DNA of 64,000 nt from the NCBI GenBank assembly GCA_016795485.1, contig JAEUHM010000010.1:62001-126000 (forward strand), given 5' to 3'. Shown in pieces: positions 6,821-11,727 of this stretch. The notes under the pieces are model-generated. The model saw only the letters and a program-made list of their open reading frames with translations, was not told the DNA's origin and did no database searches. Position 1 is the stretch's first letter. Every line of letters begins with the position of its first letter. The position numbers and the translations under genes are program-made. Origin of the DNA: Verrucomicrobiaceae bacterium. GTDB taxonomy: Bacteria; Verrucomicrobiota; Verrucomicrobiia; Verrucomicrobiales; Verrucomicrobiaceae.

Positions 6821-7242
6821 CCGAGCATCTTGAGAGCGCCGAAGCGACGATTCACTGGGGCAAGCGTCTCGCAGCCACTTTGCGTGGTGGTGATGTCATC
6901 GCACTGATTGGCGGACTCGGCGCGGGAAAGACGCACGCTTCAAAAGGCATCGTGGAGGGGCTCGGTTGCGCCGCAGAAGTCACCAGCCCCACCTTCACTC
7001 TCGTGCATGAGTATCGAGGGGGCAAACTACCGATTTTTCACTTCGATCTTTATCGTGTCGAGACCGCTCAAGAACTTCTGGAGATCGGGTGGGATGAAAT
7101 GATGGACGAATCGGGCATCATGCTGGTCGAGTGGGCAGATCGCTTCCCAGAACTGCTGCCAGCGAGTGCCCGCTGGTTTGAGTTGAAGGTCTTGCCCGAG
7201 GGTGGGCGGAGTGTTACGGCTCTTCAAAATCCGTCTGCATGA
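6817..7242 (+). CDS. tsaE: tRNA t6A biosynthesis ATPase TsaE
   Basis: TsaE is the P-loop ATPase that resets the TsaB-TsaD complex, which makes N6-threonylcarbamoyladenosine at position 37 of ANN-decoding tRNAs. The start chosen is the ATG at 6817, four bases overlapping the thiL stop. It gives a 141-residue protein of normal length with Walker A GGLGAGKT at residues 32-39. The block TSPTFTLVHEY is typical of the family, as is the downstream DLYR with LVEWADRFPE. The stop overlaps the tsaB start by ATGA, so the two are translationally coupled. A longer in-frame reading upstream would lie inside thiL and was rejected. Confidence 0.95.
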   Translation: MTEHLESAEATIHWGKRLAATLRGGDVIALIGGLGAGKTHASKGIVEGLGCAAEVTSPTFTLVHEYRGGKLPIFHFDLYRVETAQELLEIGWDEMMDESGIMLVEWADRFPELLPASARWFELKVLPEGGRSVTALQNPSA

Positions 7243-7871
7243 CTTCTCGCGCCGTCCTCGCCATCGAACTTTCCACGCCACGAGGGCATGTGGCTCTAGT
7301 ACGCGGTGCCGATGTGCTTCTTGAAGAAGCTTTTGTCTCCGAACGCTCACACAACTCCATGCTCTATGAACCGCTCGGCCGGGCGCTTGAAGTTGCAGGT
7401 GATGCCCTCAGCCTCGTCGTGGTTGGACTCGGGCCTGGGTCCTATACAGGCGTCCGCATTAGCATTGCCGCCGCCCAAGGGCTCGGCTTATCGCGTTCCG
7501 TACCCGTGATTGGACTTCCGTCGATCGGCTTTCTCTCAGACGAAGCCGATTACATCGCCGTGGGAGATGCACGTCGCGGGCAGTTCTACACAACGCGAAT
7601 CAATGAGCATCGACAGCTCGATGCGATCAAACTTCTACCATCCGAGGAGACGTCTTCGTGGCTGAGTCAACAGAACCTGCCTGCGTTCACCTCAGACAGC
7701 GTTCCGCCATTGCCCGGCGTGTTGTGTGCAAAACCTAGCGCCATCTCACTTGCGAAACTTGCTGCTGAACTCGGAGAAGAAACCGTCTGGACGCTTACGG
7801 AGAGGCCTCTGGAGCCGTGCTACGTGCAAGAAGCTTTCATCACCAAGTCCAAGAAACCGCTCGGCACCTAA
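7239..7871 (+). CDS. tsaB: tRNA t6A biosynthesis protein TsaB
   Basis: TsaB is the scaffold partner of TsaD in threonylcarbamoyl transfer to tRNA. The 210-residue protein starts with the ASKHA-fold AIELST block and carries the family signature GLGPGSYTGVRI at about residues 64-75. It overlaps tsaE by four bases. TsaD is not in the window. The far C-terminus is short, as is usual for bacterial TsaB. The gene closes the sppA to tsaB run and converges on the symporter operon at 7892. Confidence 0.94.
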   Translation: MTSRAVLAIELSTPRGHVALVRGADVLLEEAFVSERSHNSMLYEPLGRALEVAGDALSLVVVGLGPGSYTGVRISIAAAQGLGLSRSVPVIGLPSIGFLSDEADYIAVGDARRGQFYTTRINEHRQLDAIKLLPSEETSSWLSQQNLPAFTSDSVPPLPGVLCAKPSAISLAKLAAELGEETVWTLTERPLEPCYVQEAFITKSKKPLGT

Positions 7872-7874
7872 ATC

Positions 7875-7893
7875 AGCTGCATCACATGCAGCT
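7875..7893. terminator. Hairpin between convergent tsaB and symporter operons
   Basis: An 8-bp perfect inverted repeat (AGCTGCAT / ATGCAGCT) with a 3-nt loop fills the gap between two convergent genes and overlaps the stop codon of the minus-strand microprotein. There is no strong T-run on either side, so it is a weak or factor-assisted terminator candidate for both directions. Confidence 0.4.
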
Positions 7894-8023
7894 ACTTCTC
7901 CTGATCGGGCACCTCACTGAACATCCGGCGCACATCTTTTGCTCCTTTCACGGCTACAAAGAGTGTGATGAGCGTGTACCAAGCCAGCGCGGCGAGTAGA
8001 ATGATGAGCCAGAAAGTGATCAT
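7892..8023 (-). CDS. 43-residue single-pass membrane protein coupled to the symporter
   Basis: This small gene starts at the ATG whose last bases overlap the TGA stop of the symporter gene (ATGA, 8020-8023). It encodes one hydrophobic segment (about 4-24) followed by a charged tail containing KGAKDVRR and ending in QEK. The exact stop-start overlap, same strand and one-helix design point to an accessory subunit of the transporter. Comparable small partners are known for some SSS-family carriers. I do not recognise the sequence, and a longer reading (start at 8110) would run inside the symporter gene. Confidence 0.7.
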   Translation of the reverse strand: MITFWLIILLAALAWYTLITLFVAVKGAKDVRRMFSEVPDQEK

Positions 8024-9636
8024 TGTGCTGCAGACTTTGAAGATGGTTGGAGAAGCGACCCAGCAATCATGCCGAGAGCCGCACCTCCAAAGGCCGCTAG
8101 ACCGGCCCAATCCTTACCAATAGATGCAGCCCAAGCGCTGGTGGAGGGCAGTTTTTCAAGAGTTAGGTGTGCCACAGGCACCAGGGCCCCACAGAAAATG
8201 GCCCCATAAGCACCCCAAGTGCTCGCTTTGCTCCAGTAACAACATGCGACGAGCAATACAGACATGCTCGAAAGATAAATGGAGCCTGTGAGCAGCAAAT
8301 AAGACCACACATTGCCCTCGATCTTGTAAAACAGACCAAACACGAGCAGGTAAACACCAATCAAGCCAATGATGCAGCGGTTCCACAAGAGTCCTCTTCG
8401 TGCATCCAACTTCGTCTTCCGGAGTGGGCCAATGATGTCGTTGTAAATCACGCTCCCCCAACTCAGCATGTAACTGGAGTCGGTAGACATATCGGCAGCA
8501 AGCATTGCGGCGAGCAGCAGTCCCATAAGACCGATAGGAAGGAAGGTGTTAAGAAACTTCGGCATTGCGTGCAGCCCCTCCTCTTCCATGAGTGCGACAC
8601 TTTGGGGCGGCAATTGGGTCTTCTCGGCAGCTGTGAGTTGCGCAAGTGGTTGTCCAACAGGCGAGGACTCGATCTTTGCTGCGATCACATCCGGGATCTT
8701 TGTTCGCTCGGCATCGGGAAGCGCACTGAGCGGCTTCCAACCAATCACTGCAAGTGCTGCAATCCCCCAAATAGCCGGAAAGAGCCATCGGCAGACGAAA
8801 AAGAAGCTCGTGTGAGTGTAGACTTTCATCCCAGTGGCTGCATCGCGGGCTGCCAAGAGCCTTGCCACCACAGCTTGCCAAGTAAGGGCCGCAGCAGCAT
8901 TTCCCACAAACTGCATCAGCACCGAAGGCCACCCCATGGACGGATTCACCAGGGGATTGAAGCCTCCATCGCCGTGATTTGCTCGCACAGTTTCTACCAA
9001 CTTGTCCCAACCGATCTGCGACAAGATCATCACGGTCACCACCAACATCCCGCCACTCATAACAATGAACTGCAAGTAATCCGTCACTAGCACTGACATC
9101 ATTCCACCTAAAACGGTGTAAACCACGACGAGCAGAAGAAGCAGACTCATAATGAGCGTGAGCCACTTCAAATCCATCCCGGTAACCAAACAGATAAAGT
9201 CGCCCCCAATCTTCAGAAACACACCCATGTTGAGTAGCCCGCCCATCACAATCACCACACCTGCGAGCCAGCGCACCCCTTTACCAAATCGCTTCTCAAA
9301 CAGCTCCGGCAACGTGACAGCGCCCGAATCACGGAGTGGTTTAATGCAGAATCCAGTAATGCCGATGATCCACATCGACAACGCTTGGCACAAACCTGGG
9401 AAAGCACCGGCAAAGCCATTGGTGTATCCACCTTGTGCGGTGTACATGCAGGTGATGATGCCAAACTCCGTGGCTGCCAGAGAAGCGATGCCGAGGTAGA
9501 GATTCATCTCCCGACCAGCGACCAAAAAATCTTCCACTCCCCTCACTTTTCTGCGCACCCAGATACCAGCCACCATCGTGACGAGGAGATAGACTCCCAC
9601 GATGCTGCCATCTACGGCCCAGGAAAAGTGATTCAT
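8020..9636 (-). CDS. Sodium:solute symporter (SSS family)
   Basis: The 538-residue protein has about 13 to 14 hydrophobic helices. It opens with the VGVYLLVTMVAGIW and VEDFLVAGR motifs typical of SSS carriers, where the GR follows the first helix. The start chosen (ATG 9636, MNHFSW) sits just before the first helix; the upstream extension is hydrophilic and overlaps the divergent helicase promoter region. Substrate cannot be assigned from sequence; the relatives include sugar, proline and sialate carriers. A soluble loop at about residues 300-375 is longer than in small family members. The gene is followed by the overlapping microprotein gene at 7892-8023. Confidence 0.9.
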   Translation of the reverse strand: MNHFSWAVDGSIVGVYLLVTMVAGIWVRRKVRGVEDFLVAGREMNLYLGIASLAATEFGIITCMYTAQGGYTNGFAGAFPGLCQALSMWIIGITGFCIKPLRDSGAVTLPELFEKRFGKGVRWLAGVVIVMGGLLNMGVFLKIGGDFICLVTGMDLKWLTLIMSLLLLLVVVYTVLGGMMSVLVTDYLQFIVMSGGMLVVTVMILSQIGWDKLVETVRANHGDGGFNPLVNPSMGWPSVLMQFVGNAAAALTWQAVVARLLAARDAATGMKVYTHTSFFFVCRWLFPAIWGIAALAVIGWKPLSALPDAERTKIPDVIAAKIESSPVGQPLAQLTAAEKTQLPPQSVALMEEEGLHAMPKFLNTFLPIGLMGLLLAAMLAADMSTDSSYMLSWGSVIYNDIIGPLRKTKLDARRGLLWNRCIIGLIGVYLLVFGLFYKIEGNVWSYLLLTGSIYLSSMSVLLVACCYWSKASTWGAYGAIFCGALVPVAHLTLEKLPSTSAWAASIGKDWAGLAAFGGAALGMIAGSLLQPSSKSAAQ

Positions 9637-9705
9637 CGGCCCCCGATTGTGACTGCAATCCGGCGTTGGCAAAGTGGAACTTTCCTCGCTACAGAGAAAG
9701 CTTTC

Positions 9706-11727
9706 ATGCCGCGCGAATACCGCATTCAGCAACACAGAGGACCCGCATCGGGCATCGACTACCAGGCCGAGCTCAATGAGTCCCAGTACTCTGCCGTCAC
9801 CAGCCCGCCTGGGGCCGCTCTAGTGATCGCGGGTGCAGGTTCAGGGAAGACGCGGACACTCACCTACCGTGTGGCTTACCTTTTGGACAACGGAATCCCA
9901 CCAGAGAACATTCTCCTGCTAACCTTCACCAACAAAGCCGCACGTGAGATGTTGGAGCGCGTCTCTGCTCTTGTTTCCACTGACACTAATCGCCTCTGGG
10001 GTGGAACTTTTCACTCGATTGGCAATCGCATCCTGCGTCTGAACGCTCAGCGTCTTGGTTACCAACGCGGCTTCTCCATCATGGATCGCGAGGATCAAAA
10101 AGACCTCATGGAGAGCGTGCTGGCTGGTGCAGAGTTGGATGTAGGTAACTATCGCTTCCCCAAGGCTGATGTCTTGATTGAGATGTTCTCTTTGGCGCTC
10201 AACGTTTGCGTCAGCCTGCATGAGCTCATTGAAGAGCGCTACCCTTACTTTGGTCCGGTAGAAGAGTCGATTCAAAAGGTGCGGGAACTCTATGAGCGCA
10301 AAAAACAGGAGACCAACACGATGGACTTCGACGATCTGCTGGTGCGTGTCGTTGATCTCCTGCGAGATAACGTAGATGTGCGAGAATACTACCAGCGGCA
10401 GTTTCAGTTCGTGTTGGTAGATGAGTATCAGGACACGAACAAGCTCCAGTGCGACATGGTAGACCTCCTTTGTGGGGAGAACGGCAATCTCATGGTCGTC
10501 GGTGATGACGCCCAGAGCATCTACTCCTGGCGAGGTGCTGACGTGGGAAACATCCTCAACTTCCAAAGGCGCTACCCAAAGGCAAAAACGTTCAAGATTG
10601 AGACAAACTACCGCAGTGTGCCGGAGGTGCTGGCTCTTGCCAACGCATCCATTGCCAACAATAGCGCCCAAATCCCAAAGACTCTTCTGCCGGCACGTTC
10701 AGGAGGCAAAATGACCCCTGCCCTCGTCTCAGTGGACACACCTTCTGCCCAGGCTGCCTTTGTGGCACAACGCATCCTGGAACTCCACGAAGAAGGCGTC
10801 GAGCTTGACGAGATCGCGGTGCTTTATCGCGCTCACTTTCACTCATTGGAGATTCAGATGGAGCTCACCAGCCGAGGTATTCCATTTCAGATCACCAGCG
10901 GTCTTCGTTTTTTCGAGCAGGCTCATGTTAAAGATGTGGCTGCTTTCATGAAGTTCGCCGTCAATCGCAGAGACGAAGTCAGCTTCATGCGTCTCGTAAG
11001 GCTGCTCCCTGGCGTTGGGAATGCCAGTGCCAGCCGCATGTGGTCAGCGTGGCTGGCATCGGATGGCGTCAAAGATGGGCCTCTGGCGCAAAAGTTTTCC
11101 GCTCTCCTGATGGCATTGCCAGCGCCAAAAAAGGCCCAAGAAACTTGGCAACAGTACGCTTGGACGCTGGACGAGCTCGTAGACGAAGTTGGCACGCCTG
11201 TTGCGCCCGCATCGATGATTCACAGTGTCACTGAAGGTGTCTACGGCGACTACATGCGGACCAAGTTCAAGAACGCCGAGCAGCGCGAGCAGGATCTCGA
11301 TCAGCTGTCTGCGTTCGCCTCCAGATTCAGTGACGCCACGGAGTTTCTCAGTCAACTTGCTCTGCTAACAGGCGTCGACACCGAAGGCAATCAACCGGGC
11401 GCTCAGCCTCAGGAGAAAGAAGCCGTAACGCTAACTACCACCCACCAAGCCAAAGGATTGGAGTGGAAGATCGTGTTCGCCGTGTGGTTGGCAGACGGAA
11501 TGTTCCCTCATCGCCGCGCGATTGATGACGGAGGCCCTGAGGCTCTCGAAGAAGAACGTCGTCTGTTTTACGTGACCGTCACCCGAGCCAAAGATGAACT
11601 GTATCTGGTGTTCCCCGTGATCAATCACCAAGCTCGAGATGGCAATGTGCTCCAGAGAGCCTCAAGGTTCATCGAAGAGCTGCCTGATGAACTCGTAGAC
11701 CCCTGGAAAATCACTGCCGGTTGGTAA
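9706..11727 (+). CDS. ATP-dependent 3'-5' DNA helicase, UvrD/PcrA family
   Basis: The 673-residue superfamily 1A helicase is close to the usual 650-750 residues. Motif I is GAGSGKT (43-49), motif II VDEYQDTN, motif III the GDDAQSIYSWRGA block, motif V TTHQAKGLEWK and motif VI FYVTVTRAKDEL. The start at 9706 gives an N-terminus just before the LNESQ Q-motif; earlier in-frame codons lie inside the divergent symporter gene. Such helicases act in nucleotide-excision and mismatch repair and in clearing replication forks. Whether this is the organism's UvrD, PcrA or Rep cannot be decided here, so no symbol is given. Confidence 0.93.
   Translation: MPREYRIQQHRGPASGIDYQAELNESQYSAVTSPPGAALVIAGAGSGKTRTLTYRVAYLLDNGIPPENILLLTFTNKAAREMLERVSALVSTDTNRLWGGTFHSIGNRILRLNAQRLGYQRGFSIMDREDQKDLMESVLAGAELDVGNYRFPKADVLIEMFSLALNVCVSLHELIEERYPYFGPVEESIQKVRELYERKKQETNTMDFDDLLVRVVDLLRDNVDVREYYQRQFQFVLVDEYQDTNKLQCDMVDLLCGENGNLMVVGDDAQSIYSWRGADVGNILNFQRRYPKAKTFKIETNYRSVPEVLALANASIANNSAQIPKTLLPARSGGKMTPALVSVDTPSAQAAFVAQRILELHEEGVELDEIAVLYRAHFHSLEIQMELTSRGIPFQITSGLRFFEQAHVKDVAAFMKFAVNRRDEVSFMRLVRLLPGVGNASASRMWSAWLASDGVKDGPLAQKFSALLMALPAPKKAQETWQQYAWTLDELVDEVGTPVAPASMIHSVTEGVYGDYMRTKFKNAEQREQDLDQLSAFASRFSDATEFLSQLALLTGVDTEGNQPGAQPQEKEAVTLTTTHQAKGLEWKIVFAVWLADGMFPHRRAIDDGGPEALEEERRLFYVTVTRAKDELYLVFPVINHQARDGNVLQRASRFIEELPDELVDPWKITAGW

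Follow-up and report, generated by a model that had tools for sequence, protein, structure and literature searches.

A conserved microprotein as a probable one-helix subunit of bacterial SSS symporters, with a fused counterpart in sister transporters

Introduction

The closest described counterpart of the microprotein reported here is MAP17 (PDZK1IP1), the one-helix partner of the human SLC5 carriers SGLT2 and SGLT1, which belong to the sodium:solute symporter (SSS) superfamily. According to structural reports, SGLT2 requires MAP17, which contacts helix M13 at the periphery of the carrier and, when states are compared, superimposes together with the stationary bundle domain while the rest moves (PMC9616851, PMC10803289). 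The same reports describe an SGLT construct in which GFP, placed in the intracellular loop IL6, was joined to a nanobody behind the MAP17 helix (PMC9616851, PMC10803289). This construct fits a MAP17 helix with its N-terminus outside and its C-terminus inside, the orientation that is also predicted for the microprotein.

Small membrane proteins are likewise encoded beside LeuT-fold sodium symporters in bacteria. MetS, a small partner of such a symporter, is said to be the small subunit of the methionine/alanine importer MetPS (Pfam MaAIMP_sms) and is reportedly needed for transport. Its partner belongs to the NSS family, whereas that of the microprotein is an SSS carrier. The small partners of SSS carriers include YjcH (DUF485) with ActP, DUF997 (YhdT) beside PanF and DUF4212 beside VC_2705-type carriers. 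They resemble the microprotein in being small membrane proteins whose genes adjoin those of SSS symporters, but they are larger, have two helices and are usually encoded before the symporter. There is also an NCBI product name, "Symporter small accessory protein", which by its wording denotes a tiny one-helix protein beside a symporter. The gene order acs-yjcH-actP, in which ActP is an acetate symporter of the SSS family, has been reported (PMC6498577). Here we describe a microprotein gene behind an SSS symporter gene in a window of 64,000 nucleotides, the whole stretch of DNA that was analysed.

Results and Discussion

The microprotein gene occupies positions 7892-8023 on the minus strand and encodes a product of 43 aa, MITFWLIILLAALAWYTLITLFVAVKGAKDVRRMFSEVPDQEK, with one predicted membrane helix (about residues 4-25) followed by a cytosolic tail. 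Its ATG lies on the TGA stop codon of the gene for an SSS (SLC5-type) sodium:solute symporter (8020-9636, minus strand; 538 aa from the ATG at 9634-9636), the two genes sharing the 4 nt of ATGA at 8020-8023 on the same strand. A preliminary description of this locus had correctly given the position and length of the gene, the ATGA that overlaps the symporter stop and the presence of one hydrophobic segment. It had left the strand unnamed; it is the minus strand. The frame is present as a single copy in its own genome. From its translation, by eye, we take the plus-strand gene that ends at 7871, separated by 20 bases from where the microprotein gene ends, for tsaB. The gene on the other flank of the symporter/microprotein pair, also on the plus strand, was named by eye as a UvrD/PcrA-like helicase. 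No promoter-like site was found in 7700-9900, and the one terminator-like site there, a lower number than shuffled sequences gave, does not lie behind the microprotein; no Rfam family was found in 7000-10500.

A bare open frame at an ATGA is ordinary and proves little: counted over both strands, the whole window has 589 ATGA sites, and 204 of them open a frame of at least 43 codons. That such lengths are common, and that no NCBIfam or Pfam family covers the product, are the points in favour of there being no gene at all, only a chance frame behind the symporter. The case for a gene is made by conservation of a homologous frame behind related symporters and not by frame length. Related symporters were gathered from 57 related genomes and from a collection of 84,980 species (50 loci from the latter), giving 53 non-redundant loci after six duplicates and five loci with the symporter stop outside the stretch had been dropped. 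A homologous frame of 41-69 aa was found behind the symporter in 50 of these 53 loci. A check for the same overlap in relatives had been proposed at the outset, and exact ATGA is indeed found in 28 of the 50, the window's own locus included; the rest have offsets of -8 to +48 nt. By their record titles, the loci with a homologous frame come from Verrucomicrobiota, Planctomycetota, Acidobacteria, Aminicenantes, Lentisphaerae, Fimbriimonadales, Saprospiraceae/Lewinellaceae, Avibacterium, Streptobacillus and Cetobacterium. The preliminary description had made its case depend on conservation in close relatives, and the frame is conserved far beyond them.

Selection acts on the encoded protein. Pooled pN was 0.114 and pooled pS 0.470 for the microprotein frame (20 pairs, which overlap and are hence not independent), and dN/dS ranged from 0.02 to 0.45 in the 19 pairs without saturated dS, indicating that the frame is under purifying selection. 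All 17 genomes that were searched through their loci gave a microprotein match. In Cetobacterium, annotation shows the homologue as a gene that overlaps the symporter by 4 nt, its product being called only "hypothetical protein". Against the conservation in 50 of 53 loci, the protein-level selection, the matches in 17 of 17 genomes and this annotation, a chance frame is scarcely credible, and as regards a conserved frame the comparison refutes it. Judged by these comparisons, the microprotein is a real, conserved gene. At one locus, in Streptobacillus notomytis (L055, 3980-4111), the frame is intact in sequence and has no ATG, GTG or TTG start, which may be due to an unusual start codon, to a sequencing error or to decay.

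The gap-free core alignment runs from FW through a hydrophobic stretch with WY to V-x-x-[KR]G-x-x-D-[IV]-x-x-M. In an alignment of 39 members, W5 never varies, and Y16, V23, G27 and M34 are each found in at least 90%. The short charged cytosolic end carries the conserved motif, [KR]-G-x-x-D-[VIL]-x-x-M, which can also be written G-x-x-D-[IL]-x-x-M-[LF]. Lysine and arginine were more numerous after the helix than before it in all 50 microproteins (276 vs 4 in all). This excess behind the helix places the C-terminus inside, and the microprotein is predicted to cross the membrane once with its N-terminus outside and its C-terminus inside.

The microprotein had been said to fit no recognised family, and this holds for Pfam, NCBIfam and the PDB as searched, where no family covering the stand-alone form, or the fused form described below, was found. 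MaAIMP_sms was not among the listed matches of the 39 members at E up to 1 in NCBIfam and in Pfam (25 of 28 families), and none of DUF485, DUF997 and DUF4212 was among the listed Pfam matches (25 of 28 families) at the same threshold. Among the NCBIfam matches of the 39 members at E up to 1 there was no model named "Symporter small accessory protein", and the phrase was not found in the literature searched. No MAP17 chain was among the eight PDB matches of the 39-member profile (E up to 10), and the listed Pfam matches (25 of 28 families) likewise included no MAP17 family. Very distant homology with MAP17 is conceivable for a single helix, sequence comparison having otherwise returned no sign of it. 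The Pfam scan of the 39 members gave scattered weak matches to "Vpu" (4/39, best E 7e-4), PSS (5/39, 0.0037) and DUF4381 (4/39, 0.0028), and the NCBIfam scan gave ten families with one member each (best 0.011). We read these as fortuitous, of the sort that a generic one-helix protein gives by chance. No description of the microprotein was found in a literature search by title and start of abstract, over a collection that includes few subscription journals.

The symporter matched PF00474 (Pfam SSF) with an E value of 1.3e-33 and 116.9 bits, against a gathering score of 22.8, which places it in the SSS/SLC5 family; TIGR00813 matched with an E value of 8.2e-44, but under its cut-off. An AlphaFold model of the window's symporter had a pLDDT of 87.5 and a pTM of 0.90. 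When compared with solved structures, the model matched chains of SMCT1, NIS, SGLT1/2, SiaT and vSGLT with Z scores of about 26-34 over 432-485 residues, and other LeuT-fold families ranked lower among the structure matches listed. The model thus indicates that the symporter has the LeuT-type fold of the solved SSS structures. By reading of the model there are 13 helices (M0-M12), 12 of which exceed the hydropathy threshold, and the charge rule puts the N-terminus outside and the C-terminus inside (K+R 8 vs 19). The symporter aligns to the SGLT1 and SGLT2 chains just to residue about 554. SGLT1 residue 581 sits in loop IL6, ahead of M13 (PMC9616851). Judged by where the alignment ends, M13 of SGLT is absent from the window's symporter. 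This is a difference from the MAP17 system, in which the partner has M13. Some symporters with a separate microprotein have an insertion before the last helix, yet their chain ends at that helix. Two distant-branch symporters with a separate microprotein behind them, L075 (683-1454, plus strand) and L151 (1063-1495, on the microprotein's strand), carry a long insertion at this place, which in L075 measures roughly 200 residues.

Among the 57 relatives, the symporter (E ≤ 1e-40) and the stand-alone microprotein (E ≤ 1e-5) were found in an identical set of 11 genomes. The other 46 had no stand-alone microprotein, and the sole further match lay within a 678-residue frame (G040). This co-occurrence largely restates adjacency, and just the genomes in which the two genes are unlinked are independent. 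Three symporters have no adjacent microprotein (L005 in G034, L007 in G010 and L054 in G441), and all three genomes carry a copy elsewhere, with no SSS match (E ≤ 1e-5) within the 1.5 kb flanks of these orphans. For the G034 and G010 orphans, the nearest microproteins come from the same clade as the nearest relatives of the symporter; the G441 orphan grouped apart from the microproteins that go with the nearest relatives of its symporter. That the microprotein is kept when unlinked from the carrier argues for action in trans. The orphan loci, L119 (G010), L126 (G034) and L129 (G441), lie beside unrelated genes, which by eye are an accA-like gene and a TPR gene at L126 and dipeptidase-like and gluconolactonase-like genes at L129.

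When 30 stand-alone frames were checked, 26 lay directly behind an SSS gene, three were the orphans and one (L155) began 63 nt from a contig end. In G386, the microprotein lies behind a symporter that the contig end cuts off. Matches of the microprotein profile, with stand-alone and fused forms taken together, occurred in 40 of 387 genomes of the window's phylum (E ≤ 1e-3), in 20 of 294 genomes of the phylum of the Planctomycetota contig L043 (E ≤ 1e-5) and in 4 of 296 genomes of the phylum of the Lewinellaceae contig L053 (E ≤ 1e-5).

Translational coupling of the two genes, as originally claimed, is plausible for the 28 loci with ATGA. Coupling is not obligatory, however, because the other loci have other offsets (-8 to +48 nt), because the gene lies elsewhere in three genomes and because microprotein starts have Shine-Dalgarno-like 4-mers of their own. 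Such a 4-mer was present at 26 of 50 microprotein starts vs 8 of 39 symporter starts, with a background of 9.4% at random places within symporter genes; the window's own microprotein start has none. A gene directly behind the symporter, often with a stop/start overlap, would deliver its product as the carrier is completed, and this would suit a helper of insertion or assembly that serves symporter biogenesis and leaves the complex afterwards. Such a transient role is highly improbable, given that the gene is maintained unlinked in three genomes and that a fused form exists in a sister clade.

The fused form came to light in a search of the window's phylum sample with the microprotein profile, which returned 48 rows, 13 of them stand-alone and 35 within frames of 300-928 aa, mostly 600-750. 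Twenty of the 35 long-frame matches were fetched, and in 19 of them the frame was that of an SSS protein, matched close to its C-terminus. The remaining one, in G296 (L112), did not fall in an SSS gene and was set aside as false. A 70-column segment was slid along the alignment of the 19 long SSS proteins and compared with the microprotein profile. Three C-terminal segments matched with a probability of 97-98% (best E 2.2e-13); the best segment clear of the C-terminal module reached 12% (E 0.0023), and one running into the module reached 15% (E 0.0018). Since these 19 had been found by the microprotein profile, the test was repeated on a second set of 39 long SSS proteins that had been collected with the symporter profile (E ≤ 1e-50). 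The C-termini of these 39 matched the microprotein profile in hhalign with a probability of 96.6% and an E value of 4.7e-10 over 53 gap-free columns. The 28 that were absent from the earlier microprotein search (11 of the 39 were in it) gave 95.6% and 1.2e-8. The module motif was found in 39/39 long SSS proteins vs 0/20 other long frames of the same stretches, by a pattern that was written after seeing examples. Collectively, the profile comparisons indicate that the stand-alone microprotein is homologous to the C-terminal module of the long SSS transporters. This homology is distant, as a plain microprotein HMM search reached E<0.01 in just 13 of 40 long frames. The last 105 residues of the 39 long proteins also matched Phage_holin_3_6 (10/39, best E 1e-4) and six other families with one or two members each, which we read as chance; against the PDB they gave no match below an E value of 1.3.

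The remaining 13 symporters of the symporter-profile sample (E ≤ 1e-50) have a separate microprotein gene; 12 of these genes came from the microprotein search, and the thirteenth, in G142, is a divergent frame seen on inspection (E 1e-6). In a FastTree phylogeny of 88 symporters (495 columns), a single split with a support of 1.0 divides the 49 whose microprotein is separate from the 39 in which it is fused. With the C-terminus of the symporter inside and the N-terminus of the microprotein outside, direct fusion would invert the helix, and an extra helix running from inside to outside would be needed. By hydropathy, the core of four long proteins is followed by one added hydrophobic segment, after which the microprotein-like helix comes. 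The extra helix fits one required orientation of the microprotein helix against the carrier. An M13-like helix is present in the long forms and absent from the short ones, and the position of the microprotein helix may differ between the two. The bacterial gene differs from that of MAP17 in lying behind its carrier and in existing fused in a sister clade, and we know of neither arrangement for MAP17. The suggested partnership of microprotein and symporter gains support both from co-occurrence, even when unlinked, and from this fused form in the sister transporters.

The fusion also bears on whether the microprotein is a regulator of the turnover or activity of the carrier, either as a one-helix adaptor that shields it from or delivers it to a protease such as FtsH or as an inhibitor, like MgtU/MgtR or MgtS. 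Small proteins of similar size do so for other bacterial transporters, according to one review (PMC10710835), and through its conserved charged tail the microprotein could bring in a partner from the cytosol. Regulation is consistent with the genomic facts, though it does not predict a fusion. A homologous helix that is permanently fused in the sister clade sits oddly with a role as a degradation tag or as an inhibitor that can be switched, and in the sample no genome that retains the symporter has lost the microprotein. We therefore regard a regulatory role as rather unlikely.

The microprotein probably serves as the small subunit in an SSS symporter that is encoded by two genes. We infer physical binding, the binding site and an effect that is activating or stabilising rather than inhibiting. 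In the proposed arrangement, the microprotein would pack on the outside of the 13-helix symporter as an extra, stationary peripheral helix, and the carrier would depend on it for stability or activity, as SGLT2 does on MAP17. In the sister clade, the same helix would be the last helix of the carrier, reached via one added in-to-out helix that restores the orientation. On a broader scale, we lean towards the reading that a clade of SSS symporters spread over many phyla combines a 13-helix carrier with a dedicated, detachable one-helix subunit that is fused in the sister clade, as an independent bacterial counterpart of SGLT2-MAP17. One-helix partners of LeuT-fold symporters are already known as a kind, in MAP17 and MetS; what appears to be new is this particular family, its spread over the phyla and the existence of a fused form.

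A tethered AlphaFold model was made for a relative (L046) in which the symporter and the microprotein are in register, the symporter stop being read as Q. The symporter folded well (most blocks >80), and the microprotein formed one long helix (511-556) with a block pLDDT of about 52-68. Because of these low values for the microprotein, we claim no interface. In a trial alignment with MAFFT, the separate microproteins were for the most part aligned elsewhere along the symporter, and they were left out of the modelling alignment.

Small membrane subunits are easily missed in annotation. If the carrier needs its microprotein, many SSS symporters that were cloned alone could seem inactive, in much the way that SGLT2 does when MAP17 is missing. 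Ready material on the role of an auxiliary helix in a LeuT-fold symporter is offered by the split and fused forms, together with the three genomes in which the genes are unlinked, and, should the proposal be true, the natural fused/split pair would make that role in SSS transport genetically testable. A family model for Pfam or NCBIfam could be built from the microprotein alignment.

Neighbouring frames in some relatives resemble, by eye, sulfatases and other glycan-related genes. Sulfatase-like neighbours were seen, again by eye, at L026, L028, L047, L048, L055, L056 and L063. On two plasmids of Cetobacterium somerae (L206 and L207, 1862-6102 in both), the annotated genes are, in this order, a ROK regulator, the symporter, a 48-aa "hypothetical protein" (the microprotein) and a sulfatase. 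From the sulfatase and ROK neighbours, our best guess for the substrate in that branch is a sugar or sugar derivative, and the context suggests a sugar freed from sulfated glycans. No sulfatase or glycan-type neighbour was seen by eye in the window itself. Elsewhere in the window, the minus strand at 76-2655 encodes a predicted exported protein of 859 aa with repeated putative Ig-like segments, recognised by eye from an ITTSSPLP...G...GTP motif.
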